From a virus, in the IMG/VR virus record IMGVR_UViG_3300023112_000057, positions 1-34,151 of that record: 34,151 nt of DNA, one strand, 5' to 3'. The notes under the pieces were generated by a model. That model was not told the DNA's origin, did no database searches, and saw only the letters and a program-made list of their open reading frames with translations. Positions within the stretch are counted from its first letter, which is position 1; the number at the start of each line of letters is the position of its first letter. This document shows, piece after piece, positions 7,761 to 30,606 of this stretch. The translations under genes were made by a program, and so were the position numbers.

Positions 7761-8209
7761 ACTTTTTCTTTATTTACATACTCTTCTATAGTAAAAGAAT
7801 ATAAGTTTTTTTCTATTGTATCTAAGTTTTGATCGTTAGATGGGTTTTTGTGTACGTTTATAAATACACAGTCTTCTATACATGTTATAAGTCTTTTAGC
7901 GCCTTTTATAGACTTTTCAAAACAAGGTGCTATATGTTCCACCGTTTCTCCATCTGTTGTTACTTGTATTCTGCCAGTCATTAAAAACCAAAAATGATCC
8001 GTATGATGCATAGCGCTTACAACAAATGTTCCAGCTTTCATTTTCATTTCTCTCATATACAATTGATCTGAAAAGTTGTGCTTTATAGGAAAGTCTTCGT
8101 TATCTACAAGAATTTTTCCATCACCATGTATGAAATCTTTATCATTGTTAGCTATTAAAACCTCTTGCAATGTTTCTAGCTTTCTAGTAAAGTTGCTTAG
8201 CTTGTTCAT
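7748..8209 (-). CDS. Cupin-fold protein
   Basis: The product has 153 residues. Residues 56-125 follow the cupin pattern: a glycine strand turn (KAGTF), a His cluster MHHTDH (H68, H69, H72) where the first metal-binding motif is expected, a turn MTGRIQV, then VEHIAP and a closing strand VFINVHKNPSN with H120. Cupins are small beta barrels that bind metals or sugars. Many marine phages carry such a protein among structural genes, with unproven function. The start codon overlaps the stop of the upstream stabilization gene (TAATG), suggesting translational coupling and a virion-related job. Some canonical cupin ligands are not obvious (no clear Glu after the His pair), so catalytic activity is uncertain. 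Confidence 0.65.
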   Translation of the reverse strand: MNKLSNFTRKLETLQEVLIANNDKDFIHGDGKILVDNEDFPIKHNFSDQLYMREMKMKAGTFVVSAMHHTDHFWFLMTGRIQVTTDGETVEHIAPCFEKSIKGAKRLITCIEDCVFINVHKNPSNDQNLDTIEKNLYSFTIEEYVNKEKVCQE

Positions 8210-9726
8210 TAATATCCATTGTTAATACTATAATCTGACATTACAGAGAATATTTGTTTTTCCCCACCAGGATCTGTCACGTTGTCTGTTTGAGCAACTC
8301 CTATTACAAAAAAACCTTTTACTCCACTAATAGAATCACCAAATATTACTTCACCAGCTTGAGCGGATGTGTTAGAAACTAAGTTAGCTACGTATCTATT
8401 TTCTTTCCTAGTAAAACCAGCGTAATACCTATTTAAGCTAGGATCATTTGTTCCAAGCGTAGTAAAATAGTTCGCTCTATTAACAGCTAGCCCTGTTACT
8501 GGATTTATTACATACTCACCGTTAGTATAGCTATATACGCCGTTCGTTGAGTCCGGTGTTGATTGCCAAAGATTTGTAGTAAAATTAAAATCTTTACCAG
8601 TATCGTCTGATGTGTACCTGGTTACCTCCCACCCATTGCTACCTTCGTAAGATATGTTTTTAAAGTTCTTTGAAGTAGTACTTTGAGTGTTTAAAACAAA
8701 AGTAACATTAGAAACACCAGCTACGTCGTAGAAAGATCCTCTATTAATTCTATTGTCATAGTGCTTCCATATAGCCAGCGGTCTTTCTGCTTGTCCTTGC
8801 TGGTTTAAACTGTTTTGTATAGTGTAGAAATTAGCGCCAATACTAAACGCTTTTTGAGGAGGATAAGAAAATCTACTTGTCCACCCTTTAATATCTTCGT
8901 CCCAACACAAAGTATTATAAGTGCTATTTGTGGGAACTTGACTAACGCCTGGTTGTTGTAGTGAAATAACGTATTGATCATTATGTATATCCCAAACCCC
9001 TAACACAACACCATTTCCAGAATTAGTATCTATTTCATTTAGTTTATCTCTAAAGAAATCTTTCATACCAACTCTTGATATTTCAGTTATTCCATTATTA
9101 GAAAGTCTTAATATAGAATTGTTGTTTTTGTCTGAAAAATACTTTTGGTAACCATAAACAGCAAAACTTTCAGGGTTTTTACTTATACCAAACTCTCCTG
9201 CATAAGGCTGTATAACGCCTATGGTTAAATTACTAGACGTAATACTAGAAGTTCCTTCTGCTGAATAAATGGCATCTTTATCTATTAAAGCTCTACTTAT
9301 TTTTCTTTCTTGAAATATTATTAAGTTAGAGTCTTCCGCGTAAAGCTTTTGTATAGAGCCATTAGCGGGATCAGCCGCTTTAGTTATGTCGTCAGCAGTA
9401 GAAAAAACATTTGTTCTGTTTATACCTGTTCTAGAATTGAATATACCAGAATATATCAACGCATTGCCTCTAACAGTTGAATTCGGTTCTTCTTCAACCA
9501 AGTAAGCTTTTACCCCGTAGTCTGTAGAGGTGTTATTAAAACCTCCTCTTATTCTTGATTCTTCAATAGCCCAAGAATTATCTTCACTAGTAGCGGAAAC
9601 AACTGGATAACCACCTTTGCTAGCGGGTATACCGTAGGATCCATTCCACACGGGTAACGAGTCTTTGTTTGTCTTCTTAAGAACAAAAGAGTTAAAATAT
9701 TTCACTTCTACTACCGCTCCAGCCAT
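8209..9726 (-). CDS. Stabilization-like tail protein (second of pair)
   Basis: The product has 505 residues, is rich in Asn, Ser, Thr and Tyr and is beta-strand-like throughout. It resembles the tail-stabilization/hub proteins of crAss-like podoviruses and seems to continue the architecture of the 1355-aa neighbour upstream. Visible patterns include repeated aromatic-plus-Asp turns such as WDIHNDQYVISL and CWDEDIKGWTSRF, typical of propeller-like blades. It probably sits at the head-tail junction or tail hub. The leader is A-rich, with AAGTAATA nearly repeated in tandem. The stop is shared with the cupin start. The family call is recalled from pattern; an alternative is a generic tail tubular B-type protein. 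Confidence 0.65.
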   Translation of the reverse strand: MAGAVVEVKYFNSFVLKKTNKDSLPVWNGSYGIPASKGGYPVVSATSEDNSWAIEESRIRGGFNNTSTDYGVKAYLVEEEPNSTVRGNALIYSGIFNSRTGINRTNVFSTADDITKAADPANGSIQKLYAEDSNLIIFQERKISRALIDKDAIYSAEGTSSITSSNLTIGVIQPYAGEFGISKNPESFAVYGYQKYFSDKNNNSILRLSNNGITEISRVGMKDFFRDKLNEIDTNSGNGVVLGVWDIHNDQYVISLQQPGVSQVPTNSTYNTLCWDEDIKGWTSRFSYPPQKAFSIGANFYTIQNSLNQQGQAERPLAIWKHYDNRINRGSFYDVAGVSNVTFVLNTQSTTSKNFKNISYEGSNGWEVTRYTSDDTGKDFNFTTNLWQSTPDSTNGVYSYTNGEYVINPVTGLAVNRANYFTTLGTNDPSLNRYYAGFTRKENRYVANLVSNTSAQAGEVIFGDSISGVKGFFVIGVAQTDNVTDPGGEKQIFSVMSDYSINNGY

Positions 9727-9760
9727 AATTAATTATTACTTATTACTTTATTTTTTTACG

Positions 9761-12700
9761 TTAAGTTACTTGAAACCTCAAAGTTCCAAAGTCAATTGGA
9801 TTGTCTACTGTGTTCGTCCAATCAGTAACTCCGCGATCGCCTGGACAATCATAGCATATACTTTCCAGTAAGGACTCAGCTCCAGCTCTAGTTGTAGCAA
9901 ATATAGGTCTATTATAAGATCCAACACTACTCGTGCAAGAAATGGATCCTGCACTAGTAATAGCGTTTGAAAAGTTTAAATTAAAAACAGTACCATTGCT
10001 TTGCTGTAACAATCCGTTTGCAGCGTCCCACTCTGTTTCTTTATACATGTAAATACCATTACCTCCACCGTTCCAGTTCGCGACTTCTATAGCGACGTAT
10101 TTTTCATAACTAAAATTAGATGGGTTATTACAGTCAAAAAGCTTAACTTCATTCGTTATTCCAGTAGGTGTAAAGACCATTTCTACAAACAAAGTTCTAG
10201 CTACGTCGCTATTACCAGCGTCACTAGCTAACATCTCAACTTGGTAATTGGAAGGTATTACGTTACCTGTTCCAACTCCTGACTCTAAATCACATCTTAA
10301 AGATTTATCTCCATTCTGTTGAACTTCTAAGTAGTTTCTAAATGTGAAAAAGTCATTTTGCTGGCTAGAATCTTCCAGTAAATCTTGCGTAGGATTGCTA
10401 GACAGTAGGTCAAAAATAGAAACAACACTTAAGTCTAAATCTTGCCATCTTAAGTCGTTATTTAAAGCTCCATTTAATATATAGTAAGTAGCAAAGACTT
10501 CATCTAGATTGTTTTTGTACACTGTGTCATTTTGTCCAGGCTGTTGTTGGCTTGCGTCAAACAAAGGTAAAACGTTTTTTGGATATGCTTCAAAAGTAAA
10601 AGCTGACTGCTGAGGACCGTCTTCGTTAGAAGGATCGTTCACAATAGCTGTAAGGTTAAAGTTAAAAAACCTACTTAAATCCGGTGCTTGTCTAAAAAAG
10701 AACACGTCATCGAAGTATTTCTGAGTTATTACTATGTTATAATAACCTGCAGCTATACTAGGATCATCGTTTTCATCAATCAATGTAAAATAAGGTCCTA
10801 AAGGCGTTAATTGTACATTTACTGGTTCTTGAGCTTGACTAAAAACACTAACAAGATTCATCGTTAAAAAGCTAGGATCTATAGCTGTTCCAAAGTTGTC
10901 TTGAACAGTAAAATTGTTTGAAAGTATTTTTTCTCCTACAGACAAAGCCTCATCCCAATCTGTTGAGTTTATTGGTGATAAACCTGCTCCACCACCAGTT
11001 TCACTTAGTATTAAACTGTTTAAGTCAGAAACTAAACCAGAGGTTGAAGTTTCCCAGTATATATCTAATAAACTTTCAACAGGTTCTGTTTCGTAAACAG
11101 CTAGATATTGTATACCAGGTGTTTGTAAACCTTCTGAATCGTCAGTTACACTGCCAGTCCACAATCCTGGTTCGAAGGTTATTATGTCACCAGCTTTAAC
11201 AGTTACATATACCGCATTGCCTTGAGTATCTTTAATTCTTATAGACGGTGCATTTAGGTTGTCAACGTCTGAAACTAATAAACCTTCGACTAGTTTTGGA
11301 GAGCTTATTATTGAGTTTACTAATATAGTTCCATCTACATTTTGAAGCTTTAAATCTGGAGATCCCGAGGTGGTAGTTTGATCTTCTAAAGCTTCAGCGC
11401 TAGCTGGAGAATAGTTTGTTGTAGAAATTTGACCTATTTGCTTAGGTGTGTTTATTCTAGCTATTAAAGGGTTTGATTCGTATTGATAAAACTGTGGTAT
11501 ATAGTTAGGTCTAGGTGGAGATGTCGGGTCATATTCAAACATGTCGTTAACTGTTGAAATAGTTGAAACCGTGTTAGAATCTCTCCCTGTATAATACTGA
11601 CCGTTAGTGTCTCCTAGATTAGTAGGGTAAGCTACGTTTTGCCAATCAACACCTAAGTCGTTATTTTCAACTCTTCCATACACTTGCACAGAACTTCTAA
11701 ACTGTTTTTGATCTGGACCTACTAAGTTTAAATCTCTAGGCACTTTATTTATATTATCACCTATTAAAACCATGTGAGAAGTTTTTGACAACTCTAGGCC
11801 TTGTCTCTGAGGGTAAGCAGCCATTATACCTGGCGCATAAACGTTGTAGTATTCTTGTTCTGTTTGTTTTACAACTATCTTATAAGAGTACCATCCTAGT
11901 GGATTATAATCAGCGCTAGTAGAATCTCCATTGTATATACCAGGCCAACCTTGTAAATCACCACTAGGTACAGGAGCTGTTGGAAGTATTGGCTCATTAA
12001 ATAAGACTTTCAAAGAATTACCTGGCCAATCTTGAGGTGGCGTTGATTCACCTACATAAGGAGAGTAAATAGTGTCTCCTCCAAAAGCTAAACCTGTAGC
12101 TGCATTTAACAGTTTTTCAGTGCTATTAGATAGTATTACACTAGAGCTTCTTCCAAACTTATCCTGTAAAACTATACCAACTTGGTAGTTTCTATTCTGT
12201 TTAATTGTATGGTTTGGGTATTCTACCTTGGAAACGTAATCTTGATCAGGTCCAACTGCGCTATTATCAACGTTAAAGTCTTCTTTTGGACTAACAGTTA
12301 CACTGTAGTTTATACTTTTAAGTGGAGTGTGTTTATCTTGGAAATTTCCGTAAACAATCCTATTGCTAATTATCTCTTGCGAAAAAGCTCTAACCGGTGT
12401 TTTGTCATAAACCCTAGTTAAATCCCCAGATGGTAGTGTTTTGTAAGGTTTTTTAGATAAATAGTTATACTCAAAAAAAGTATCGCTACCCGCTTTAGTT
12501 TCAATTTCTTCTATTGAAATAGTATCAATAAGCTTAACAGCTAAACCGTCTGACTCTTTGAATAATATATCTAATTCCTTTACTTTAAAGTTGTTTCTAA
12601 GAGTATCTGCTGAAGATGGTAACGGTATTTTTAATTTTATTTTATTAACTTTATTTTCAACAAAGCTTACTATAGTACTAGCGTAAGCCGAGTCTTGATC

Positions 12701-13828
12701 GTTAACCTCTTGTAAGCCGTTGTAAGGTGTGTTTTGATCTGTTAAATAATTTGGTGTATATAAAAAATAGCCATCTTGTTTTGGTATAAAAGCTATTTGT
12801 GTAAATGGAGCTATTAGAGAATGCTCGTTATCCTCAAATCTAAATCTGTAAGAAAACCTAGGAAATAAACTTTCTAAATAATCAGGATCACCTGCAAATG
12901 TTGAATCATAGTATTTATTGGCATTAAAAACAACTTCTTGACCATCTGTAAGTGTTACGTTTGTAGGTCCATCTAGTTCAATTGTCCAAGTAGGTTCTGT
13001 TGCAGAAGGAGTGGTCGTAGAATCTGCGTATGTGAATCTATTGATTTTTTTAGTTGTATCTATAATGTTTCCAGTAGGATCGACATAGCTAAAAATTGCC
13101 CCCGTATTATAGGGTGTTGTTGATAGTGAATCTACTAAGTTACCTACAACGTTTGTTAACACGATCTCATCAGTACCGCTGTATGTTCCAGAAACAGAAC
13201 CTGAACCTCCATTAGGATAGAACTTAGAAGTAACATCATGCATTGTAGTCTCTGGCTCGTCAGACAAAATATCATATAATTCTATAGACTTATAAGGATT
13301 GTATTTAGCTACAGATATTTGATCTTCGTTGACGTAATGAAGTATTGATGATTCAGCTAGAGCAGTGTTAATAACTCTAGGTTGATTATGGTTGTCTGTC
13401 CAGAAGAGCAAGCCTTCTAGAATATTAATCCCGTAAATGTTAAACTGAGTAGAAAAATTTAAAAAAGATCCTTGCACAAGTATATTAGCAAAAGACAATC
13501 CTTCTCCTAAAGTGTTATATCTAACTATAAAATTATCAGCGTTAACATTATATGAAGTTAATTCATTATTTGTTAAAAACAAATAAACGAAACCACTAGA
13601 TTCGTCTTTAATTTCACCTATACAAGATAAATTTGATACGCCTGTTAACTCGTTTAAATCTAAAACCTTGTAATTTCCAAGAACATTTTCTAAAGAACCA
13701 ACGCTAGATCCTTCAGACTTACTAACTTGAACGTTAAAAGCATCTCTATACTCTCCCTGAGGAAGCAACCTAGCATCTAAGTCTTTATTTAACTTACTTC
13801 TTACAAAAGTGTTTCTTGCTTGTGCCAT
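9761..13828 (-). CDS. Stabilization protein / tail hub (crAss-like)
   Basis: The product has 1355 residues, the longest complete gene here. The N-terminus, with NKDLDARLLPQGEYRDAFNV at about residues 14-33 followed by a GS-rich turn and ENVLGN, is a hallmark I recognise from the crAss-like stabilization-protein family. The segment FWTDNHNQPRVINT (about residue 160) is a blade-like WxD motif. The rest is beta-rich, with many NPxxWY-type loops. A Cys pair CYDC lies near the C-terminus. In crAss-like phages such proteins close the portal-tail interface and build the tail hub. It lies directly after two ring/adaptor genes, in the expected head-to-tail order. It is separated from the next, similar gene by 34 AT-rich bases. 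Confidence 0.75.
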   Translation of the reverse strand: MAQARNTFVRSKLNKDLDARLLPQGEYRDAFNVQVSKSEGSSVGSLENVLGNYKVLDLNELTGVSNLSCIGEIKDESSGFVYLFLTNNELTSYNVNADNFIVRYNTLGEGLSFANILVQGSFLNFSTQFNIYGINILEGLLFWTDNHNQPRVINTALAESSILHYVNEDQISVAKYNPYKSIELYDILSDEPETTMHDVTSKFYPNGGSGSVSGTYSGTDEIVLTNVVGNLVDSLSTTPYNTGAIFSYVDPTGNIIDTTKKINRFTYADSTTTPSATEPTWTIELDGPTNVTLTDGQEVVFNANKYYDSTFAGDPDYLESLFPRFSYRFRFEDNEHSLIAPFTQIAFIPKQDGYFLYTPNYLTDQNTPYNGLQEVNDQDSAYASTIVSFVENKVNKIKLKIPLPSSADTLRNNFKVKELDILFKESDGLAVKLIDTISIEEIETKAGSDTFFEYNYLSKKPYKTLPSGDLTRVYDKTPVRAFSQEIISNRIVYGNFQDKHTPLKSINYSVTVSPKEDFNVDNSAVGPDQDYVSKVEYPNHTIKQNRNYQVGIVLQDKFGRSSSVILSNSTEKLLNAATGLAFGGDTIYSPYVGESTPPQDWPGNSLKVLFNEPILPTAPVPSGDLQGWPGIYNGDSTSADYNPLGWYSYKIVVKQTEQEYYNVYAPGIMAAYPQRQGLELSKTSHMVLIGDNINKVPRDLNLVGPDQKQFRSSVQVYGRVENNDLGVDWQNVAYPTNLGDTNGQYYTGRDSNTVSTISTVNDMFEYDPTSPPRPNYIPQFYQYESNPLIARINTPKQIGQISTTNYSPASAEALEDQTTTSGSPDLKLQNVDGTILVNSIISSPKLVEGLLVSDVDNLNAPSIRIKDTQGNAVYVTVKAGDIITFEPGLWTGSVTDDSEGLQTPGIQYLAVYETEPVESLLDIYWETSTSGLVSDLNSLILSETGGGAGLSPINSTDWDEALSVGEKILSNNFTVQDNFGTAIDPSFLTMNLVSVFSQAQEPVNVQLTPLGPYFTLIDENDDPSIAAGYYNIVITQKYFDDVFFFRQAPDLSRFFNFNLTAIVNDPSNEDGPQQSAFTFEAYPKNVLPLFDASQQQPGQNDTVYKNNLDEVFATYYILNGALNNDLRWQDLDLSVVSIFDLLSSNPTQDLLEDSSQQNDFFTFRNYLEVQQNGDKSLRCDLESGVGTGNVIPSNYQVEMLASDAGNSDVARTLFVEMVFTPTGITNEVKLFDCNNPSNFSYEKYVAIEVANWNGGGNGIYMYKETEWDAANGLLQQSNGTVFNLNFSNAITSAGSISCTSSVGSYNRPIFATTRAGAESLLESICYDCPGDRGVTDWTNTVDNPIDFGTLRFQVT

Positions 13829-16819: not shown

Positions 16820-18256
16820 CTATGCTCCTTTGAAAAGAACGAAGTTGTTAGCAGCTTGAGTTACTAAACATCTTTCAGATAGGAAGTTTACTTCCATAGC
16901 ATCTAAAGTAGATGTGTAAGCTCCTCCAGCAGAACCAGTTAACCAAGACTTCATACGACGATCATCAGCTTGTGAAGCTCTGTATCGTACGTGTAAGAAT
17001 GGTCGACGGATGTTAGTTCCTAAAATCTGATCGTAAACTGTAGAAGTTCCAGCAGGAATTAATACACCCTCAACAGAGTTATTACCACCAGCTCCACCAC
17101 GAGTAGACGCATCGTTTAAGTATTTCCAGTCAGTCTTGTAAAAATCGTAAGAACCTCTTCTGAATCCAGAGAATCCAAGATTCAAAGCCATTTCTTCAGA
17201 GTTTTCAAATAATCCAAAAGCAGTTCCACCGGCAGAACCTAAAGAAAGCTTAGCTAACATATCGTCAAAATCAAGAGATGTTTGTCTCTGTAAGAATAAC
17301 ATGTTTTCTTCAATTGCTCCTTGAGTATCTAAATTTTTCAAGATAGCATCAAAATCAGCTAATCCATCAGCCGCTGTAAAGCCAACGTTTACGTTACCAC
17401 GCGCGCTAACAGCGGCGAATAAACCTTCAGTTCCTTTTCCAGTGGTGATAGCAGAAGCAGCTCCAACTTTTTCACCCTCAATCATAGATATCTCTAAGTA
17501 ATCTTCAAAACGTAAACGAGTTTCAGATTCAGCTTTTAAATACCATAAGTATCCAGATGTTCCATCTTCAGTTGCAACTTCAACCCATCCAATTTGTGCC
17601 ATATCAGAACCAGATACTACGTATTGGCTCTTAAGGATGATTGGTGAATTAGAGTACTGTGTAAACTGAGGATCAACACTTAAATACTGAGTTCCTGTGT
17701 TAGCTCCAGTTGCACCAGCTGAAATAGATCCACCTTTTTGGTACTCAGAACCGTATACAAAAACTTTCAATCCTGTAGCTGTAAAGCCGGTAAGATCCGC
17801 AACAGTATAAGGTTGTATAGTAATTATACCTGTAGTTGTGTCAGAGTCAGTCACTAAACATTTAGCCTCTAAACCAGTCGTTGGGTCTAATACCACAACA
17901 GTAGCTCTTGGAGATATAACGTTTTGAATAGTTGTTCCGTTAGTTTCTAAATCAATAGTTAAAGTAGAAGGAAGAGTACATCCATCGTAAGAGATGTGTA
18001 ATCTGTTTTGCTCAGACCAAATTACTTGGTCAGAAGTCATTGGCATTTCAGCACCAACCATGCGTAAGAATCCAGATAAAGTACGGTTTCCGTAACGCTC
18101 TACTTCTTGTTCGTAGATCTCAGGTAAGTATTGTTGTGCAAATGTGTTAGTGTCGCCAGCAGCGTCACTGTTAAATTGTAGGTAGTTAGAGTTTAGCAAT
18201 TCCTGCTTTTGACTCGGGATAATACTACCAAATGTTGGAGTTAAAGTACTCGCCAT
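16820..18256 (-). CDS. Major capsid protein
   Basis: The product has 478 residues. Its place between a scaffold-like gene and a strong terminator, its size, and the start sequence (MASTLTPTFG, then LPEIYEQEVERYGNRTLSGFL) match the major capsid proteins of crAss-like phages, which have the HK97 fold. A helical N-arm (residues 10-70) is followed by beta-rich A and P domains. The long helix with LRFEDYLEISMIEGEKVGAAS (about 230-250) would be the spine helix. The C-terminus has LSERCLVTQAANNFVLFKGA. Codon use is richer in C-ending codons than in the small genes, as expected for a highly expressed protein. The A-rich leader starts 16 bases after the scaffold stop. Confidence 0.85.
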   Translation of the reverse strand: MASTLTPTFGSIIPSQKQELLNSNYLQFNSDAAGDTNTFAQQYLPEIYEQEVERYGNRTLSGFLRMVGAEMPMTSDQVIWSEQNRLHISYDGCTLPSTLTIDLETNGTTIQNVISPRATVVVLDPTTGLEAKCLVTDSDTTTGIITIQPYTVADLTGFTATGLKVFVYGSEYQKGGSISAGATGANTGTQYLSVDPQFTQYSNSPIILKSQYVVSGSDMAQIGWVEVATEDGTSGYLWYLKAESETRLRFEDYLEISMIEGEKVGAASAITTGKGTEGLFAAVSARGNVNVGFTAADGLADFDAILKNLDTQGAIEENMLFLQRQTSLDFDDMLAKLSLGSAGGTAFGLFENSEEMALNLGFSGFRRGSYDFYKTDWKYLNDASTRGGAGGNNSVEGVLIPAGTSTVYDQILGTNIRRPFLHVRYRASQADDRRMKSWLTGSAGGAYTSTLDAMEVNFLSERCLVTQAANNFVLFKGA

Positions 18257-19458: not shown

Positions 19459-21846
19459 CTACATGAAAGCTTGCATACCCATATCGGGTTCGTTTTCAAA
19501 GTCTTTAGGTAAGCTATCATTTTGACGCTGGCTTATCATTTCACTTTGTTGTGTAGCTTCCATTTTGCTACGTTTATCTTTTCTATCTTCTATAGCCGCT
19601 TCTTTTTGCTGCATCGCTTGAACCTCTAGTTGCTTTAATTGCATATCGTATTCAAACTTTTGCTGCATTTTTATTTTTTCTAAATCAGCTGCTATTTGCA
19701 TTTTGTTTATTTCCATTTGAGCTTTAGCTTGTTCGTATTGAACTTTAGAACCTGATATAGCTTCTTGCTTTTGAACTTCAGCCATAGCTGTTTTTTCTGC
19801 AGTTTCTGCTTGAGCAGCAGCTTGAGCTTGTATGTTAGCCTGTTGATTAGCTTGGTCTTGAATAGCTTTTTGCTTGCGTTTTACCTTAAGCATTTGATTA
19901 GCTAGCTTAAGATTTTTAATTTGTCTTAAGTCAATAGCGTCTTCTAAGTCAATACCACCTCCACCTAACGCGACTTGAATGTTTTCTTCTAATTTAGCTT
20001 GCTCTTCGTCATCTGGCTCTAGTTCTAAAAATACACCAAAATCATATAAGTTTAAATCAATAACCTGCTGAAGCGTTTCAACGTTATAAGTTGATATAGA
20101 GTTTTTAAGTGATTCAGCTGTTAATGGAAAATACAAAGCATCCGCTATTTTAAGAGATACGTTCTCTGCTAGCTTTAACGTAAGGTATAAACTAGCTTGT
20201 TTGATATGTCTGGTTGCTACATTGGACGCGTTAGCCGCCATCTTTTGAAGACCTACTAATGAGTTCTTATCTTGCGTGCTTCCATCTCTGGCTTCGTTTA
20301 ATCCCGTTACATCGCGTATCATTTGTAAGTAATACTGATATGTTTGTATTAGCGCCTGTATTTTACCAAGTCCGCTAGAGCTATTAAGTTCTTGAATAGG
20401 CACTTTACCAGGATTCATATCGCCGTCTTGCGTCATTGATCTACCTACTATAGAACCAGTTTGGAAATACATGTTTAAAGCCTCTGCAGGATTATAATTA
20501 GTTCCATTACCAAGATCAACCTCAGCTAATCCGTCCATGTCTAAATAAACACCGTCTGGAACCATCCTAGACATTACCTGTTGCAGTTTAAGATGCGTTA
20601 GTTGAATCATGTCTGCAAATCCAATACATTTACTTACAACAGACTCTATGCGTCCCTTATACATTCTAGGAGCACATATCGTGTAATTCATTTTAACCTT
20701 AGTTGTGTCTGCCATTGGCCTAGACATGTTCTCTGCTAAGCCCCAATCTAGTATAGTGTTAGTTCCTAAAACTTTTGCGCCAGTGTATAAAACCTCTATA
20801 GACCTAGATACTCTTTCAAAGTTATCATTTTCAGGCGGATCAAACGTATCTGGTTTTTCCAAAGCTTTTAATAATCCTGAATCTGTTTGCTTTATTTTAA
20901 AAACTTGATTGTGGTAAGTCTTATATTCAAAGTACATAACCTGCACAGTGTTTTCGTCGTAATTACCCCAACCAGTTATATACTGTCTGTTTCCAGGTGT
21001 TTTTTGTATTCTTTCTAACTCCTCTTGTGATATACCAGGAAACTCTTTTTTAAGCTCTGGTATTGTTATAGACTTTACTTCACCCACATAATATATATCT
21101 TCAAAGTTTGGATCTTCTGTGTATGAGTAAACCATATAAGCTGGATCTACGTAGTCAACAGTAATTCCTTCAGCTGTATTAAAGTTGGTTTTACCAGCCG
21201 CAATACCAATAGTTGTAAGATCCATGTTTAATCTACGTCTTACAAGATCATATTTATTTTGAGCAAATACAGTTGATATAGCTTCTTCTTCTGCTATTTC
21301 AATTGACTGCTTGTAACTAAGCTGCATGTGTAGCTCTAACTCTTCTTTAGATTCTGGAACCACAACACTGCTCGGTGACTGATATAAGTCGATACCTAAC
21401 GTTTGTTTTAAGCCGTCTAAATACTCTTTAGCAACCATATCTTCTTGAAGCTTGCTAGCGTATTCAGTTCTTTTCTTTACTGAGCTAGGATCTTGAGAGT
21501 AGGCTTTTATATCATAAGACTTTTGCGATATACCGTTAACTACGATGTCTACAAACTTAGATAAAATAGGTACTGGCTTCCAGTCTAAATTAAGATAAGA
21601 CAAATCACCATTAATGGATAATTCATCTTTATATTTCTGCACAGGCTGTTCACCTCTAGCGTACAATCTTAACGAATGAAAATTATTCCAATTAGTTAGA
21701 TATCTATTACCTCCAGTTCGCCCTTGGTCAAACCACTCATACTCTATTGCTTGAGCAACTTGAGTTCCGTATTCCCAGCTAGCTTTTTCAGCGTCGCTTA
21801 CTACTTGGCTTGGAAAAGCGCTATTGGTGTTAGTGTATATACCCAT
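19459..21846 (-). CDS. Portal protein (crAss-like)
   Basis: The product has 795 residues. The order terminase-portal-scaffold-capsid and several motifs identify it: DYVDPAYMVYSYTEDPNFED with YYVGEV in the wing region (about 230-255), and the stem helix region IRDVTGLNEARDGS, which I recognise from crAss-like portals. The portal forms the dodecameric ring at one capsid vertex and the docking site for TerL. The last ~150 residues (from about 640) form a long Gln/Ala/Lys/Glu coiled coil, longer than in most portals, which may line the barrel inside the head. The ATG follows the TerL stop directly (TAAATG). Confidence 0.88.
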   Translation of the reverse strand: MGIYTNTNSAFPSQVVSDAEKASWEYGTQVAQAIEYEWFDQGRTGGNRYLTNWNNFHSLRLYARGEQPVQKYKDELSINGDLSYLNLDWKPVPILSKFVDIVVNGISQKSYDIKAYSQDPSSVKKRTEYASKLQEDMVAKEYLDGLKQTLGIDLYQSPSSVVVPESKEELELHMQLSYKQSIEIAEEEAISTVFAQNKYDLVRRRLNMDLTTIGIAAGKTNFNTAEGITVDYVDPAYMVYSYTEDPNFEDIYYVGEVKSITIPELKKEFPGISQEELERIQKTPGNRQYITGWGNYDENTVQVMYFEYKTYHNQVFKIKQTDSGLLKALEKPDTFDPPENDNFERVSRSIEVLYTGAKVLGTNTILDWGLAENMSRPMADTTKVKMNYTICAPRMYKGRIESVVSKCIGFADMIQLTHLKLQQVMSRMVPDGVYLDMDGLAEVDLGNGTNYNPAEALNMYFQTGSIVGRSMTQDGDMNPGKVPIQELNSSSGLGKIQALIQTYQYYLQMIRDVTGLNEARDGSTQDKNSLVGLQKMAANASNVATRHIKQASLYLTLKLAENVSLKIADALYFPLTAESLKNSISTYNVETLQQVIDLNLYDFGVFLELEPDDEEQAKLEENIQVALGGGGIDLEDAIDLRQIKNLKLANQMLKVKRKQKAIQDQANQQANIQAQAAAQAETAEKTAMAEVQKQEAISGSKVQYEQAKAQMEINKMQIAADLEKIKMQQKFEYDMQLKQLEVQAMQQKEAAIEDRKDKRSKMEATQQSEMISQRQNDSLPKDFENEPDMGMQAFM

Positions 21847-24057
21847 TTAACTTATTATTTTTGATGTGACACCTTTGTTGTCATATTTTTTAATTCCTAA
21901 ATTTACAGCTTCTCTTTTAACTGGAGCTGATGGAGCGTATCTATGTTTATTACAAGCCATCAAGGCTAGTCCAGAACTAATAGAAGCATCGTGCTTTGTC
22001 CTGTTGTTTATATTAAATTTAGCCCAGTCTTCCAGTGTTCTTTGAAAGTACATATCTCCATAGCCAGTTTCTTTTAATCCTACAAAATCTTCTATATAAG
22101 ACTCTATAGCAGCAGCGTGAGCTTGCTTGATATCTTCACTTGAATTTGGTATTCCACCAAGCTCTCTTTCAGTTATCGATAATTTATTGTACTTCCTGTC
22201 TGGTCTATTTATAGAGAAATTTCTATAACCTCTTCTTTTTAAATGATACAACAATCTAGGCTTGTTATTTTCCGCTAATATTGGCATACTGTAAAAAACT
22301 AATGCCATTAACACATCTTCAAAAAATATCTCAGCAGTTTGTGGTCTAGCTATATATTCTAAAAAGAAATGGTTTGGAGGTACGTCCTCCATACTAAATT
22401 TAGTTAAGCCATGTAAAGATCCATTTGATCCTCTTTTATCAACCGTACCTGATATATCATAACTATCACAACCAAAAGCTCCACAGTGTTCATTACCTGG
22501 ATATTTCAGTCCACCCTTTATTATCACACGATTTTGGAGATTTAAAGGTGGAACCCAGGAAACTCTAAATCTACCGCTTTTGTTTGGTACAAATATAACT
22601 TTTGTATCTTTAACTCCGTTTTCCCACTGAAAACTTCCTTGAGTAACATTTATTGAGTTTTTAAGATCTTCATTAAAATCTATCTGCTCATATATCTTTG
22701 AAAGGTTAAATAGAGATTCTTTAGACTCATCTCTAAACGCGTGTTTAGTTGTGCGTGGAAACTGTCTGTAGAATTCATTTAAACCATCTTGATCATTTTT
22801 AAGACCTTCAACTTCATTGTCCCAATACTCTATAACACCTTGAGTAATTGGATCTCCAAAAGGACCTACTACTTCTTTTTCTGGTGTGTTGAATACAGGA
22901 AAGCCATAAGAATCAATGTAGCCTTCGTAGTTCCATTCCATAGGTATGAACAAAGAATAGAGTCCTGAGCGAGTCTGTCCATTGGCGTTTCTTTGTGTAA
23001 CGTCTGAATCATTGTAAAGTTTTTTAAAGTTATCTCCTCCTTTATCTAAAGCGTTTGACGTTGATCCCATCATACACTTGCCTATAATTCTTGAACCTAG
23101 TCTTAAACAAGTTCTTGTAACCCTCCAGTTATTTAATATATTAGTTGGTCTCTCCCACTTTCCACTTTCATCGTGTACTAGTAGTTTTAATTTCTCACCG
23201 TCATACGAGTTGTCCCCCGTGTTTTTCCAGTCGATCGTCGTGTCGAGCCCTGTGATCTCTTGTAGCTTCTCGTTTGAATCGAGCTTGCGTCTCGTAAACT
23301 TTGACGCGGGAACTCTATAAGCGAGCTCTGTCTTCGGTCGATCCATTCCGTCCTGTATTGGCTTGAAAAAGAAGGGGTAATTGACTGATATTGGTACAAC
23401 TTTGTCTGTAAACATCTTCTTTGCATCTGGTCCAGATTTGGACAATATACCAAATCTAGCATCTGAAGATATCGTTGCTTGGTTAACGGTTTCTCCTGAA
23501 GCCATAAACGAAAAACCCGATCGTCTGTTTTTAAGGTAGCACATTCCGTAGCTACGTTTATCTGCTTTACAAGCTTCCCAGAATATGTAGAATAATCTGT
23601 TTGATTCCCTAAAGTCCGGCTGCCCAACGTCAATCTTGCTCCACTGCAAGTACATATAGTTAGTGCCAGTAATGTAAGTAGCCAACCCTTTATTATAAAA
23701 CCAAAAACCCTGTCCTCTTCTATTAAATTCTTCATCAATGTAATCATACCATTTTTCTTTAAATTCCAAAGGATATTCTTCCCAGTCAAATACTGATTTT
23801 ATTTTACTAAGCTCCTTTGGGTACTCAGTGTAACTCCATCTGTCGTCTTCAAATGTGTGTATATTTTCAGCTTTTGGTAAAGCTATTTTTAAATCCTGTA
23901 TTTCATAAATTTCACCTATTTCACCGGTTTTACTTATAACCACCAAATCGTGTTCTTCGTTATAACCGTACTCCCACTTCTTATACCTATTCATTCTTTT
24001 AAGAACTTTAGGCTTTATGTAGTCTTCTAATACTTTGTATAAAGTTTGCTCGTACAT
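21847..24057 (-). CDS. terL: Terminase large subunit
   Basis: The product has 736 residues. The packaging ATPase and nuclease motifs are visible in order: an adenine-binding/Walker A-like region YLKNRRSGFS (residues 174-183), Walker B LKLLVHDE (290-297), and coupling motif GSTSN (331-335). The nuclease domain follows, with the first acidic pair in GCDSYD (529-534) and a late KHDASISSGLAL (688-698) carrying the final Asp. TerL cuts concatemeric DNA and pumps it through the portal. Codons for residues about 235-288 are unusually G/C-ending, unlike the rest of the gene (see findings). The start overlaps the stop of the TerS-position gene (TAATG). Confidence 0.92.
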   Translation of the reverse strand: MYEQTLYKVLEDYIKPKVLKRMNRYKKWEYGYNEEHDLVVISKTGEIGEIYEIQDLKIALPKAENIHTFEDDRWSYTEYPKELSKIKSVFDWEEYPLEFKEKWYDYIDEEFNRRGQGFWFYNKGLATYITGTNYMYLQWSKIDVGQPDFRESNRLFYIFWEACKADKRSYGMCYLKNRRSGFSFMASGETVNQATISSDARFGILSKSGPDAKKMFTDKVVPISVNYPFFFKPIQDGMDRPKTELAYRVPASKFTRRKLDSNEKLQEITGLDTTIDWKNTGDNSYDGEKLKLLVHDESGKWERPTNILNNWRVTRTCLRLGSRIIGKCMMGSTSNALDKGGDNFKKLYNDSDVTQRNANGQTRSGLYSLFIPMEWNYEGYIDSYGFPVFNTPEKEVVGPFGDPITQGVIEYWDNEVEGLKNDQDGLNEFYRQFPRTTKHAFRDESKESLFNLSKIYEQIDFNEDLKNSINVTQGSFQWENGVKDTKVIFVPNKSGRFRVSWVPPLNLQNRVIIKGGLKYPGNEHCGAFGCDSYDISGTVDKRGSNGSLHGLTKFSMEDVPPNHFFLEYIARPQTAEIFFEDVLMALVFYSMPILAENNKPRLLYHLKRRGYRNFSINRPDRKYNKLSITERELGGIPNSSEDIKQAHAAAIESYIEDFVGLKETGYGDMYFQRTLEDWAKFNINNRTKHDASISSGLALMACNKHRYAPSAPVKREAVNLGIKKYDNKGVTSKIIS

Positions 24058-24332
24058 TACTTAGATCTCCCTTCTGCAAAGCCTTTAAAAGATTTTTCTT
24101 CTTTAACTTCCACTGGTTTTTCGTTTAACATATTTTCTTCAGCTTCTATTCTATTTAGTATTTCAAAAGCATCAAATATAGCTAACTTTTTTGTAGCTGC
24201 AGCGTTTTTTAATCTGTCAGCCGATATATCGTCATCCGAATCAACAATAGCTTCTTTAGCTACTTTGATCAACTCCTCTACTGCTTTTTGCCCAGCTTGG
24301 ATTATGTTCAACTTCGTTTCCTTGGTATTCAT
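24057..24332 (-). CDS. Terminase-linked small protein, TerS candidate
   Basis: The product has 91 residues and is fully helical in appearance: NIIQAGQKAVEELIKVAKE, then an acidic DSDDD linker, ADRLKNAAATKKLAIFDAFEILNRI, and a basic tail GFAEGRSK. I recall very similar proteins directly upstream of terL in many marine phages. Position and helical make-up suggest the small terminase or a terminase regulator, but I see no clear helix-turn-helix. It overlaps the end of the 208-aa gene by 77 bases in another frame. Its stop shares bases with the terL start. Confidence 0.6.
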   Translation of the reverse strand: MNTKETKLNIIQAGQKAVEELIKVAKEAIVDSDDDISADRLKNAAATKKLAIFDAFEILNRIEAEENMLNEKPVEVKEEKSFKGFAEGRSK

Positions 24333-24882
24333 ATTTAATTACGATATCATTAGATTTCATACAGTATAATCTTTTTCCGTCAATCAAAAACTCCCATTCT
24401 CCGTTAGGCGTATAGCCAACTAAGTCTCCTGAGTTAATTCCTAGCGCATTTAAAGAGCTATTGTCATATTTTAATATACCAACAAGGCTTCTTTCTTTAT
24501 CTAGCGTTAAAGACTCTGTATTTTTTATAGGTGAAACAAAACATCTGTCTCCGAAAGACCTCCATTTGTCACCTTTATTATATAAGTAAATTTGATCTAT
24601 AGCGCAAAAATGCCACTCATCTTTAAACCAAGATCTACTTTTCTTTTTTCTCCCCTTCATGTCATAGAATACTCTAAACACGTTTTGGTGTATAACAATT
24701 ATATCACCAACTTCAATATCAGTATTAAAAGCCTGAGGTGTTTCTACTACTTTAGCTAGTCTATTGACAAATTTAAAATCTTCAATTTTTGTATTTACAA
24801 CTAACTCCTTACCTGCTATTGTTATTTTATTACTGTATTTTTCGCCTAACGGCTCTACTATAAAGTCATATAAAGCTTTCAA
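24256..24882 (-). CDS. Tandem GroES-like protein
   Basis: The product has 208 residues. The first half aligns by eye with co-chaperonin 10: DFIVEPLGEK, GKELVVNT, NRLAKVVETP, IEVGDIIVIHQNVFR (57-71), then CAIDQIYLY (93-101). The second half repeats the plan: DRCFVSPIK (112-120), LVGILKYD, INSGDLVGYTP (149-159), FLIDGKRLYCMKSNDIVIKY (165-184). Both VGD/SGD turns and the closing xDI/DQI strand are at GroES-like places. It may act as a co-chaperonin variant or simply use the fold in the virion or in packaging. The only in-frame start is TTG at 24882, inside a TTGA overlap with the previous stop. The fold call is inference; the length (208) is about twice GroES. Confidence 0.55.
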   Translation of the reverse strand: MKALYDFIVEPLGEKYSNKITIAGKELVVNTKIEDFKFVNRLAKVVETPQAFNTDIEVGDIIVIHQNVFRVFYDMKGRKKKSRSWFKDEWHFCAIDQIYLYNKGDKWRSFGDRCFVSPIKNTESLTLDKERSLVGILKYDNSSLNALGINSGDLVGYTPNGEWEFLIDGKRLYCMKSNDIVIKYEYQGNEVEHNPSWAKSSRGVDQSS

Positions 24883-28365: not shown

Positions 28366-28812
28366 TTATCTGTTTTTATCTTTATTGACGTTTTTAATAG
28401 AAGTTATAAGAACTTTATCAGTATACGTCTTACCCTTCATAATACTGTTTCTGTGATTGCTAGTTGGCAAGTCATCTTGACCTAGTATAATTCTATACAT
28501 ATGCTTTATTAAATGCTTGCATTTAAACGAAGTTTTGTATATGTGATATTTTTGAGTTGTTCTGTTTCTTTTTCTCCAAACAACTATCCAACCTTCTTTT
28601 AACAAACGATTCCAGCGGCGGTTATCCCAACTATAGGAATAACTACCGGCTTCAAAATCTTTTTTTGTAAACATATCCATGCAGTCTAAGTATATCAATA
28701 ACTCTAGATCAGCATCATTAAGGTCGTTGTTCCTGCAAGCCCATTTACGTATTATACGATAATGTTTAAACAGATTCATATTCTTTATGTCATCTGCGTC
28801 TAGCCTTTTCAT
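28366..28812 (-). CDS. Winged-helix-like DNA-binding protein
   Basis: The product has 148 residues and is basic. The region 13-100 fits a winged helix: LFKHYRIIRKWACR, helix DADLELLIYLDCMD (33-46), second helix FTKKDFEAG, a recognition-like helix WDNRRWNRLLKEG (62-74) and a wing of strands IVVWRKRNRTTQKYHIY (76-92). I recall close relatives in many marine phages. It may regulate late genes or bind phage DNA. It overlaps groES by an ATGA junction, so it is co-translated with the chaperonin pair. Confidence 0.65.
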   Translation of the reverse strand: MKRLDADDIKNMNLFKHYRIIRKWACRNNDLNDADLELLIYLDCMDMFTKKDFEAGSYSYSWDNRRWNRLLKEGWIVVWRKRNRTTQKYHIYKTSFKCKHLIKHMYRIILGQDDLPTSNHRNSIMKGKTYTDKVLITSIKNVNKDKNR

Positions 28813-29069
28813 AAAACAACAACTACATCTTGCGCTTTAATAACGTGATATGTTTTTTTGTCTATTTCTATCTTATGCCCAGCGTGTCTGTCAAAGAAGA
28901 TTTTATCACCTTCTTTCAATCCTTCAACTTGTTCACCAGCTGATAATACATTGGCTTCAGTGTAACGAATATCTTCACGTTGGTTTTCTGCAAGAAGTAA
29001 ACCACCTTTTGTTTCGGTGGTTCCTTCTTTTATTTTTTCTATTATTAAGTTTCTACCTATCGCTTTCAT
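28809..29069 (-). CDS. groES: GroES co-chaperonin
   Basis: The product has 86 residues, close to bacterial GroES (97). It begins MKAIGRNLIIEKI, has a mobile loop EGTTETKGGLLLAEN (15-29) with the hydrophobic GGLLL that docks on GroEL, then VLSAGE, LKEGDKIFF (51-59), YHVI and QDVVVVL. It caps the GroEL ring. I chose ATG 29069 over an upstream TTG at 29072; both lie inside the end of groEL (17 or 20 bases of overlap). The order groEL then groES is the reverse of bacterial operons. The mobile loop differs from the bacterial consensus, which fits a phage-adapted partner. Confidence 0.88.
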   Translation of the reverse strand: MKAIGRNLIIEKIKEGTTETKGGLLLAENQREDIRYTEANVLSAGEQVEGLKEGDKIFFDRHAGHKIEIDKKTYHVIKAQDVVVVL

Positions 29070-30606
29070 CAATTCTTAAATTATTGATTACACAATCAGT
29101 TGATAATATAGTTGTCGCTACTGAAGCTGCGTTTTGAAGAGCGCTCTTGGTAACTAGTAGAGGATCAATAATGCCTGAGTTAATCATATTTACCATTTTT
29201 CCTGTAACCACGTTTAAACCTCTTCCTTTAGCTTTTGGTAATTCTACATCTGTTATGCCGGCATTTTCTAGTATTGTATTAAATGGTGCTTTAATTGCTT
29301 CTAAAAGCAGCTTTTCACCATCTGACTTTGGTACTATACTTTTTGCAGCGTTTAACAGAGCTATACCACCTCCAGGAACGATACCTTCTTTAATAGCAGC
29401 TTTTGTAGCGCAGATAGCATCTTCGACTCTATCTGTTTTTTCTTTTAATTCAATATCAGAATTAGCACCTACTTTTACAATTGCTATTTTAGCAGCAAGC
29501 ATCGCTAATCTTTTTTCAAGTTTAATTACTTTGTGAGGCGGGTTGTCTTTTAATAACTCTCCCTTAATCTCATCTATAATATTTAAAACTTCTTGTGAAG
29601 ACTCTCCAAATTGAAGAATAGTCTCTTCGTGTGTTGTAACACTTTTTAAACAACTACCTAAATGTTCCACTTGAATTAAATCCATATCGTCACCTAGGTC
29701 TTCATTTATAATAGTAGCTCCAGTTAATAAAGCTAAATCATCTAAAACTTCTTTTTTGCTAATACCATAAGTTGGTGCGTTAATTACATTAACCTTGATG
29801 TTACCCTTGTTTTTATTCATAGCTAAAGCAGATAAAACACCTTGTTCTAAATCGCCTATAATAAGCAAAGGTTTGTTGTTTTTTATTACATGCTCTAGCA
29901 CTGATTGAATTTGTCTAATTGTATCAATAGGTGATTCAACTAGTAATACTAATGCGTTTTCAAGTTCAGCTGACTTATTTTGCTTGTTTGTTATAAAGTG
30001 AGAGTTTGTAAGACCTTTGTCGTACTGAACACCATCTATAACTTCGACTTCTGTTTTACCTTCTGCTGAGGTTTCCATCATTACAATCCCTGTATTATCT
30101 ACAGCTCTAAAAGCGTCGGCTATAATTTTACCTAGCTTTGGATCGTTATTTGTAGATATAGTAGCGATTTGATCGATCATGCCACCTTCTACAGGTACTG
30201 ATGCAGATTCTAAGTAAGTAATTACTTTTTCTACAGCTTTGTTAATACCTTCTTTTAATTCTCTTGAGTTTGTTTTATCTGAAACCTTATAAGCTTCAGT
30301 TAATATAGCGTGAGCTAAGACTGTAGCTGTGGTTGTACCATCGCCTGCTTCTCTCACTGTTTTTCTTGCTGCTTCTTTTAAAAGTGTAGCGCCCATGTTT
30401 TCCACAGGATCTCGCAAGATTATTGAATCCGCCACTGTAACACCGTCTTTTGTAATAATTGGCTTTCCAGTATGATCTTCTAACATCACACATTTGCCGC
30501 TAGCTCCTAAAGTGGAGCTAACAGCTTTTGTGAGCTTTTCTATTCCTTTAAATACGTTAACTCTGGCTTCTTCACCAAAGTTAAGGTTTTTGACAATTGC
30601 GTCCAT
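29053..30606 (-). CDS. groEL: GroEL chaperonin (60 kDa), phage-encoded
   Basis: The product has 517 residues against 548 in E. coli. The ATPase residues are kept: TKDGV with D54, GDGTT at 88-92 with D89, the RVEDA Asp (D396, equal to E. coli D398) and PGGGIALL at 411-418. The apical domain runs about 186-375, with YDKGLTNSHF and KPLLIIGD. The C-terminal Gly-Gly-Met tail found in most bacterial GroELs is absent; the protein ends after NNLRIDESDR. Such a folding machine would help fold phage capsid or tail proteins. It lies in a late-gene run between small phage genes, so it is a phage gene. The leader resembles that of the 83-aa coiled-coil gene. Confidence 0.93.
   Translation of the reverse strand: MDAIVKNLNFGEEARVNVFKGIEKLTKAVSSTLGASGKCVMLEDHTGKPIITKDGVTVADSIILRDPVENMGATLLKEAARKTVREAGDGTTTATVLAHAILTEAYKVSDKTNSRELKEGINKAVEKVITYLESASVPVEGGMIDQIATISTNNDPKLGKIIADAFRAVDNTGIVMMETSAEGKTEVEVIDGVQYDKGLTNSHFITNKQNKSAELENALVLLVESPIDTIRQIQSVLEHVIKNNKPLLIIGDLEQGVLSALAMNKNKGNIKVNVINAPTYGISKKEVLDDLALLTGATIINEDLGDDMDLIQVEHLGSCLKSVTTHEETILQFGESSQEVLNIIDEIKGELLKDNPPHKVIKLEKRLAMLAAKIAIVKVGANSDIELKEKTDRVEDAICATKAAIKEGIVPGGGIALLNAAKSIVPKSDGEKLLLEAIKAPFNTILENAGITDVELPKAKGRGLNVVTGKMVNMINSGIIDPLLVTKSALQNAASVATTILSTDCVINNLRIDESDR

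Follow-up and report, generated by a model that had tools for sequence, protein, structure and literature searches.

The window is the complete IMG/VR record IMGVR_UViG_3300023112_000057, a linear 34-kb fragment of 34,151 bases from a marine phage; the relatives known for it are phages of flavobacteria. It encodes a GroEL (Cpn60; 29053..30606, minus strand, 517 aa) and a GroES (Cpn10; 28809..29069, minus strand, 86 aa, ATG start) within a minus-strand gene run that leads from the tail fibre to the holin, terminase, portal, and virion proteins, in line with the late operon proposed for the pair in an earlier note made from the sequence alone. The run includes the genes for the terminase large subunit (21847..24057, minus strand; PHROG 6681, E 5.6e-161), the portal protein (19459..21846, minus strand; PHROG 6547, E 1e-140), and a virion structural protein (16820..18256, minus strand; PHROG 13704, head and packaging, E 4.6e-85). 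The portal, which was used to place the phage, is 50% identical to that of ctfjg026 and 41% to that of an elemovirus. The virion structural protein is the presumed capsid of the earlier note and a candidate chaperonin substrate; none of the libraries used names it major capsid protein. Further along (8209-13828), two adjacent ORFs encode products of 505 and 1355 aa that correspond to different regions of a single 1474-aa family, PHROG 14478, so that a protein found in one piece elsewhere appears to be split in two here. In the product of 8209-9726, the C-terminal part resembles the crassvirus muzzle domain of Pfam (crAss_MUZ_C, E 1.5e-7), which hints at a relationship to crAss-like phages.

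The groEL product matched Pfam Cpn60_TCP1 above its cut-off (PF00118, E 1.2e-59) and, over residues 5-509, PHROG 5725 (E 2e-133). All residues of the ATP site that were checked are kept (E. coli numbering here and below): T30, G32, K51, D52, G53, D87-T91, D398, G414-G416, N479, and D495. The protein lacks the Gly-Gly-Met tail and ends in NNLRIDESDR. The groES product matched Pfam Cpn10 (PF00166, E 8.5e-14) with 51.8 bits against a cut-off of 21.1 and also a PHROG family named GroES, its AlphaFold2 model matches GroES, Hsp10, and gp31 structures, and its mobile loop contains GGLLL; the hydrophobic character of this loop is conserved in both phage GroEL clades described below. What the earlier note had read from the letters, namely a full-length GroEL with its ATPase residues but no Gly-Gly-Met tail, accompanied by its own GroES with a GGLLL loop, thus held throughout. 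The median dN/dS was 0.125 for groEL and 0.20 for groES, indicating that both genes are maintained by selection. The roof of this GroES is short (10 residues), as is that of T4 gp31 (12 residues), a phage-encoded lid of the GroES type that, by annotation, uses the host GroEL. We considered such a roof as a special phage adaptation and rejected this, as some bacterial GroES also have a roof of 10 residues, for example in Campylobacterota and Nitrospirota loci.

The last 17 nt of groEL are shared with groES, which starts at an ATG there (overlap 29053..29069, minus strand) and has an in-frame TTG one codon upstream; with the ORF that follows, groES shares 4 nt. A conserved neighbor, P148 (28366..28812, minus strand), adjoins groES in nearly all loci. 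It had no match in Pfam or PHROG, and a winged-helix protein is our guess from its sequence. P148 is on the same strand as groES here and on the opposite strand in the elemoviruses, ctfjg026, and the second GroEL clade.

Gene order was compared in IMG/VR relatives, of which the best 80 of 114 for the window GroEL and the best 80 of 442 for the ctfjg026 GroEL were analyzed. Within the close group, which includes the window, each of the 80 members that reach groES has it downstream of groEL, and 76 of the 80 show an overlap of exactly 17 nt. In the second clade, groES follows groEL within 600 nt in 53/80 loci, and in most of the others it is found further downstream on the same strand; for two loci (L198 and L199) it was not found in the DNA examined. 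Inserts of 0 to ~2 kb separate the two genes across this clade (L187-L266). Bacterial loci have the opposite arrangement, with groES before groEL in 77/80. The reversed order and overlapping ends pointed out in the earlier note are therefore confirmed, and as the order is kept across relatives it is a stable phage trait rather than an oddity of a single contig. Immutovirus, SJC03, and Cellulophaga phage phi40:1 show the bacterial order.

The same order of groEL then groES, together with the terminase-linked second co-chaperonin described below, is shared by the elemoviruses, ctfjg026, and Maribacter phage Panino. The GroELs of these phages and of those reported by Nishimura et al. 2017 (PMC5332604) are only 35-39% identical to that of the window, and these phages differ from it in the strand of P148 and in the absence of the 17-nt overlap. 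The Panino groES (L086, 8767-9033) follows groEL and carries the annotation 'hypothetical protein'. The Pervagoviridae (Cellulophaga phages phi38:1 and phi40:1, and Calle) encode GroEL, a short GroES, and the second co-chaperonin in one genome, as here, but in phi40:1 groES is upstream of groEL with one gene between.

Phage GroEL pairs have been described before, and the present one is not the first of its kind. Among marine Bacteroidetes phages related to Cellulophaga phage phi38:1, 36 genomes were reported to encode GroEL (PMC5332604), the Panino paper also mentions phage GroEL and GroES (PMC11590407), and Marine et al. 2017, as cited in PMC7185714, dealt with chaperonins in virioplankton. 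Using tblastn, we detected GroEL relatives in 280 of 50,697 phage records, 192 of them with at least 80% query coverage; this record set is redundant, with 73 of the matching records from Flavobacterium phages and 68 of these from one host strain. With the hundreds of IMG/VR contigs added, GroEL cannot be called rare in this region of phage space, contrary to the statement in the earlier note that it is rare in phages.

To what extent could the pair be a recently captured host groESL, retained fortuitously or to raise the dosage of the host machine? Such capture does occur in other phages, given that the SJC03 GroEL nests among Bacteroidota and Vibrio phage GroELs group with those of Gammaproteobacteria. 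The window GroEL behaves differently. With 84,980 species genomes scanned, the best bacterial GroELs among the matches listed were 38-42% identical and came from many phyla at similar identity, and there was no close clustering with one host genus, which the earlier note had named as the sign of recent acquisition. In the tree, the window group is a clade of phage sequences alone (support 100/100; branch length 1.8 changes per site) that stands apart from all cellular rows, although several long branches meet in this tree and false joins are a risk. The low bacterial identity and the branch length, along with a gene order opposite to the bacterial one, make recent host capture extremely improbable, and we rejected it. 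Placing the window group together with Bacteroidota was not rejected in an approximately unbiased (AU) test (p 0.352), and the GroEL may have an ancient origin in this phylum.

A second co-chaperonin gene, hereafter tES, is located just upstream of the terminase gene (24256..24882, minus strand; 208 aa, TTG start), from which it is separated by one small ORF (24057-24332). Its product matched PHROG 13932 ('co-chaperonin GroES', E 5e-26) and no Pfam family, whereas the Cellulophaga homologues pass the Pfam cut-off in their C-half, and the family is annotated as cpn10 or GroES in several phages. When aligned to bacterial GroES, the C-half of tES gave an HHalign probability of 96.5% and is by this comparison homologous to Cpn10; the N-half gave 12.5% and has no significant sequence match to Cpn10. 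When the AlphaFold2 model of tES (pLDDT 79.6) was compared with the PDB, two-domain plastid subunits of entry 7ekq ranked first and second, namely Cpn20 (7ekq_R; E 3.7e-5, 202 columns, TMq 0.52) and Cpn23 (E 3.7e-4, 214 columns, TMq 0.44), whereas single-domain GroES chains had a TMq of ~0.30. The higher values for the two-domain subunits suggest that the N-half also has a Cpn10 fold, and tES is apparently, judging from the model, a two-domain, Cpn20-like co-chaperonin.

Occurrence of tES was tied to that of the short GroES, the two being found together in 18/18 records tested. Cellulophaga phages phi13:2, phi19:3, and phi46:3, which belong to the same portal group, encode both proteins without a GroEL, and Gundel_1 lacks all three. 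A search for a tandem co-chaperonin in 295 host-class genomes gave, among the matches listed, coverage of the C-half only. Four unusually long host-class frames were inspected and discarded, three being ordinary GroES with an upstream open-frame extension and one (G025) an unrelated protein. In phage MaF61, the gene of a very divergent GroEL is immediately preceded by that of a 187-aa protein (L267, 912-1475) with matches to the GroES PHROG in two stretches, which may be a separate case of a double GroES-like protein.

The GroEL of the window clade is altered at sites of lid and substrate contact. The apical groove residues Y199, Y203, L234, V263, and V264 are replaced by L or I, H, Q, A, and M, respectively, in 13/13 window-clade rows (Y199L, Y203H, L234Q, V263A, and V264M in the window itself), and these substitutions run toward smaller or polar residues, while L237, L259, F204, and N265 are retained. 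In place of the lower hinge G374-G375 the clade has A-K, or A-R in one row. At the ring-ring interface, where the alignment is gappy, R452, E461, S463, and V464 are in most cases not retained and differ among clade members, and a deletion covers E434. The groove and hinge changes, along with the altered inter-ring residues, suggest a chamber tailored both to phage proteins and to its own lid, and the ring-ring interface is perhaps rebuilt or absent, so that the chaperonin possibly works as a single ring.

Phage-encoded GroEL relatives with single rings have been reported for phages EL and OBP (PMC5934643). The EL protein is ~28% identical to the window GroEL over 79% of the query, and both chaperonins are reported to act without a co-chaperonin, whereas the window phage has its own GroES. 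Studied with E. coli GroES, the EL chaperonin did not interact with it and was a holdase or remodeller without encapsulation (PMC7185714). The window GroEL could likewise hold or remodel its substrates in the open, with the phage GroES serving the host GroEL instead; the lids of the three GroEL-less Cellulophaga phages imply that such proteins can do so. The replaced groove residues fit this explanation as well. We nevertheless consider it unlikely, as the conservation of the 17-nt overlap in the close group and the retention of L237, L259, F204, and N265 both argue against it.

The reading we favor, with a probability of roughly three in four, is that this is a functional group I chaperonin with a specialized chamber, which the phage supplies together with a dedicated lid, and that virion or packaging proteins are its likeliest clients. 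From the sequence we infer its activity, ring state, GroES docking, and clients as follows. An unfolded phage protein would bind the apical groove of GroEL, and ATP binding would then allow GroES to dock via its GGLLL mobile loop. The protein would fold inside the closed chamber, and ATP hydrolysis would reset the cycle. The reversed gene order and the overlap would probably couple the translation of groES to that of groEL. Late virion or packaging proteins are our best guess for the clients because the two genes sit among late genes; the earlier note had named the capsid and the very large stabilization protein as possible clients. T4 gp31 and phage EL provide precedents for phage lids and chaperonins (PMC7185714, PMC5934643, PMC5780408). 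The proposal of the earlier note that this is a phage-adapted pair is well supported by the phage-only branch, the clade-fixed groove and hinge changes, the 17-nt overlap, and purifying selection. A further candidate reading is a decoy or moonlighting protein, acting for example in stress tolerance of the infected cell or in interference with host GroEL rather than in the folding of virion proteins. An intact ATP site, purifying selection, a lid of its own, and a location with structural genes make this highly unlikely.

Of the elements at this locus, the second, apparently double-domain lid may possibly be the new one, such a type being otherwise described only in chloroplasts. The chloroplast system has one single-domain (Cpn10) and one two-domain (Cpn20) lid protein, comparable to the GroES and tES of the window, and the two-domain type is chloroplast-specific according to a review (PMC5780408). 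Cpn20 differs from tES in that the N-half of the latter is not significantly similar to Cpn10 in sequence. A literature search with most subscription journals outside its coverage returned no paper on two-domain or tandem GroES in phages. We tentatively raise the possibility, which we think doubtful, that the short GroES and tES form a mixed seven-domain lid (e.g., three tES and one GroES), plastid-like but arisen in phages, which would serve the phage GroEL, or the host GroEL where the phage has none.

Taken at the level of sequence, this is a real, conserved phage GroEL/GroES machine whose reversed gene order and remodelled GroEL are solid facts, while operation as a single ring, a mixed lid, and clients among the virion proteins are what we infer. 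It belongs to a large and strongly conserved GroEL clade with fixed changes in the lid groove and hinge and with lost ring contacts. With cultured relatives available (elemovirus, Calle, phi38:1, and Panino), the client, the ring state, and the lid can be tested for a natural phage chaperonin. Should the two-domain structure of tES be confirmed, Cpn20 would have a counterpart outside plastids, and tES would offer a natural way to test how even-numbered lids sit on rings with seven-fold symmetry.
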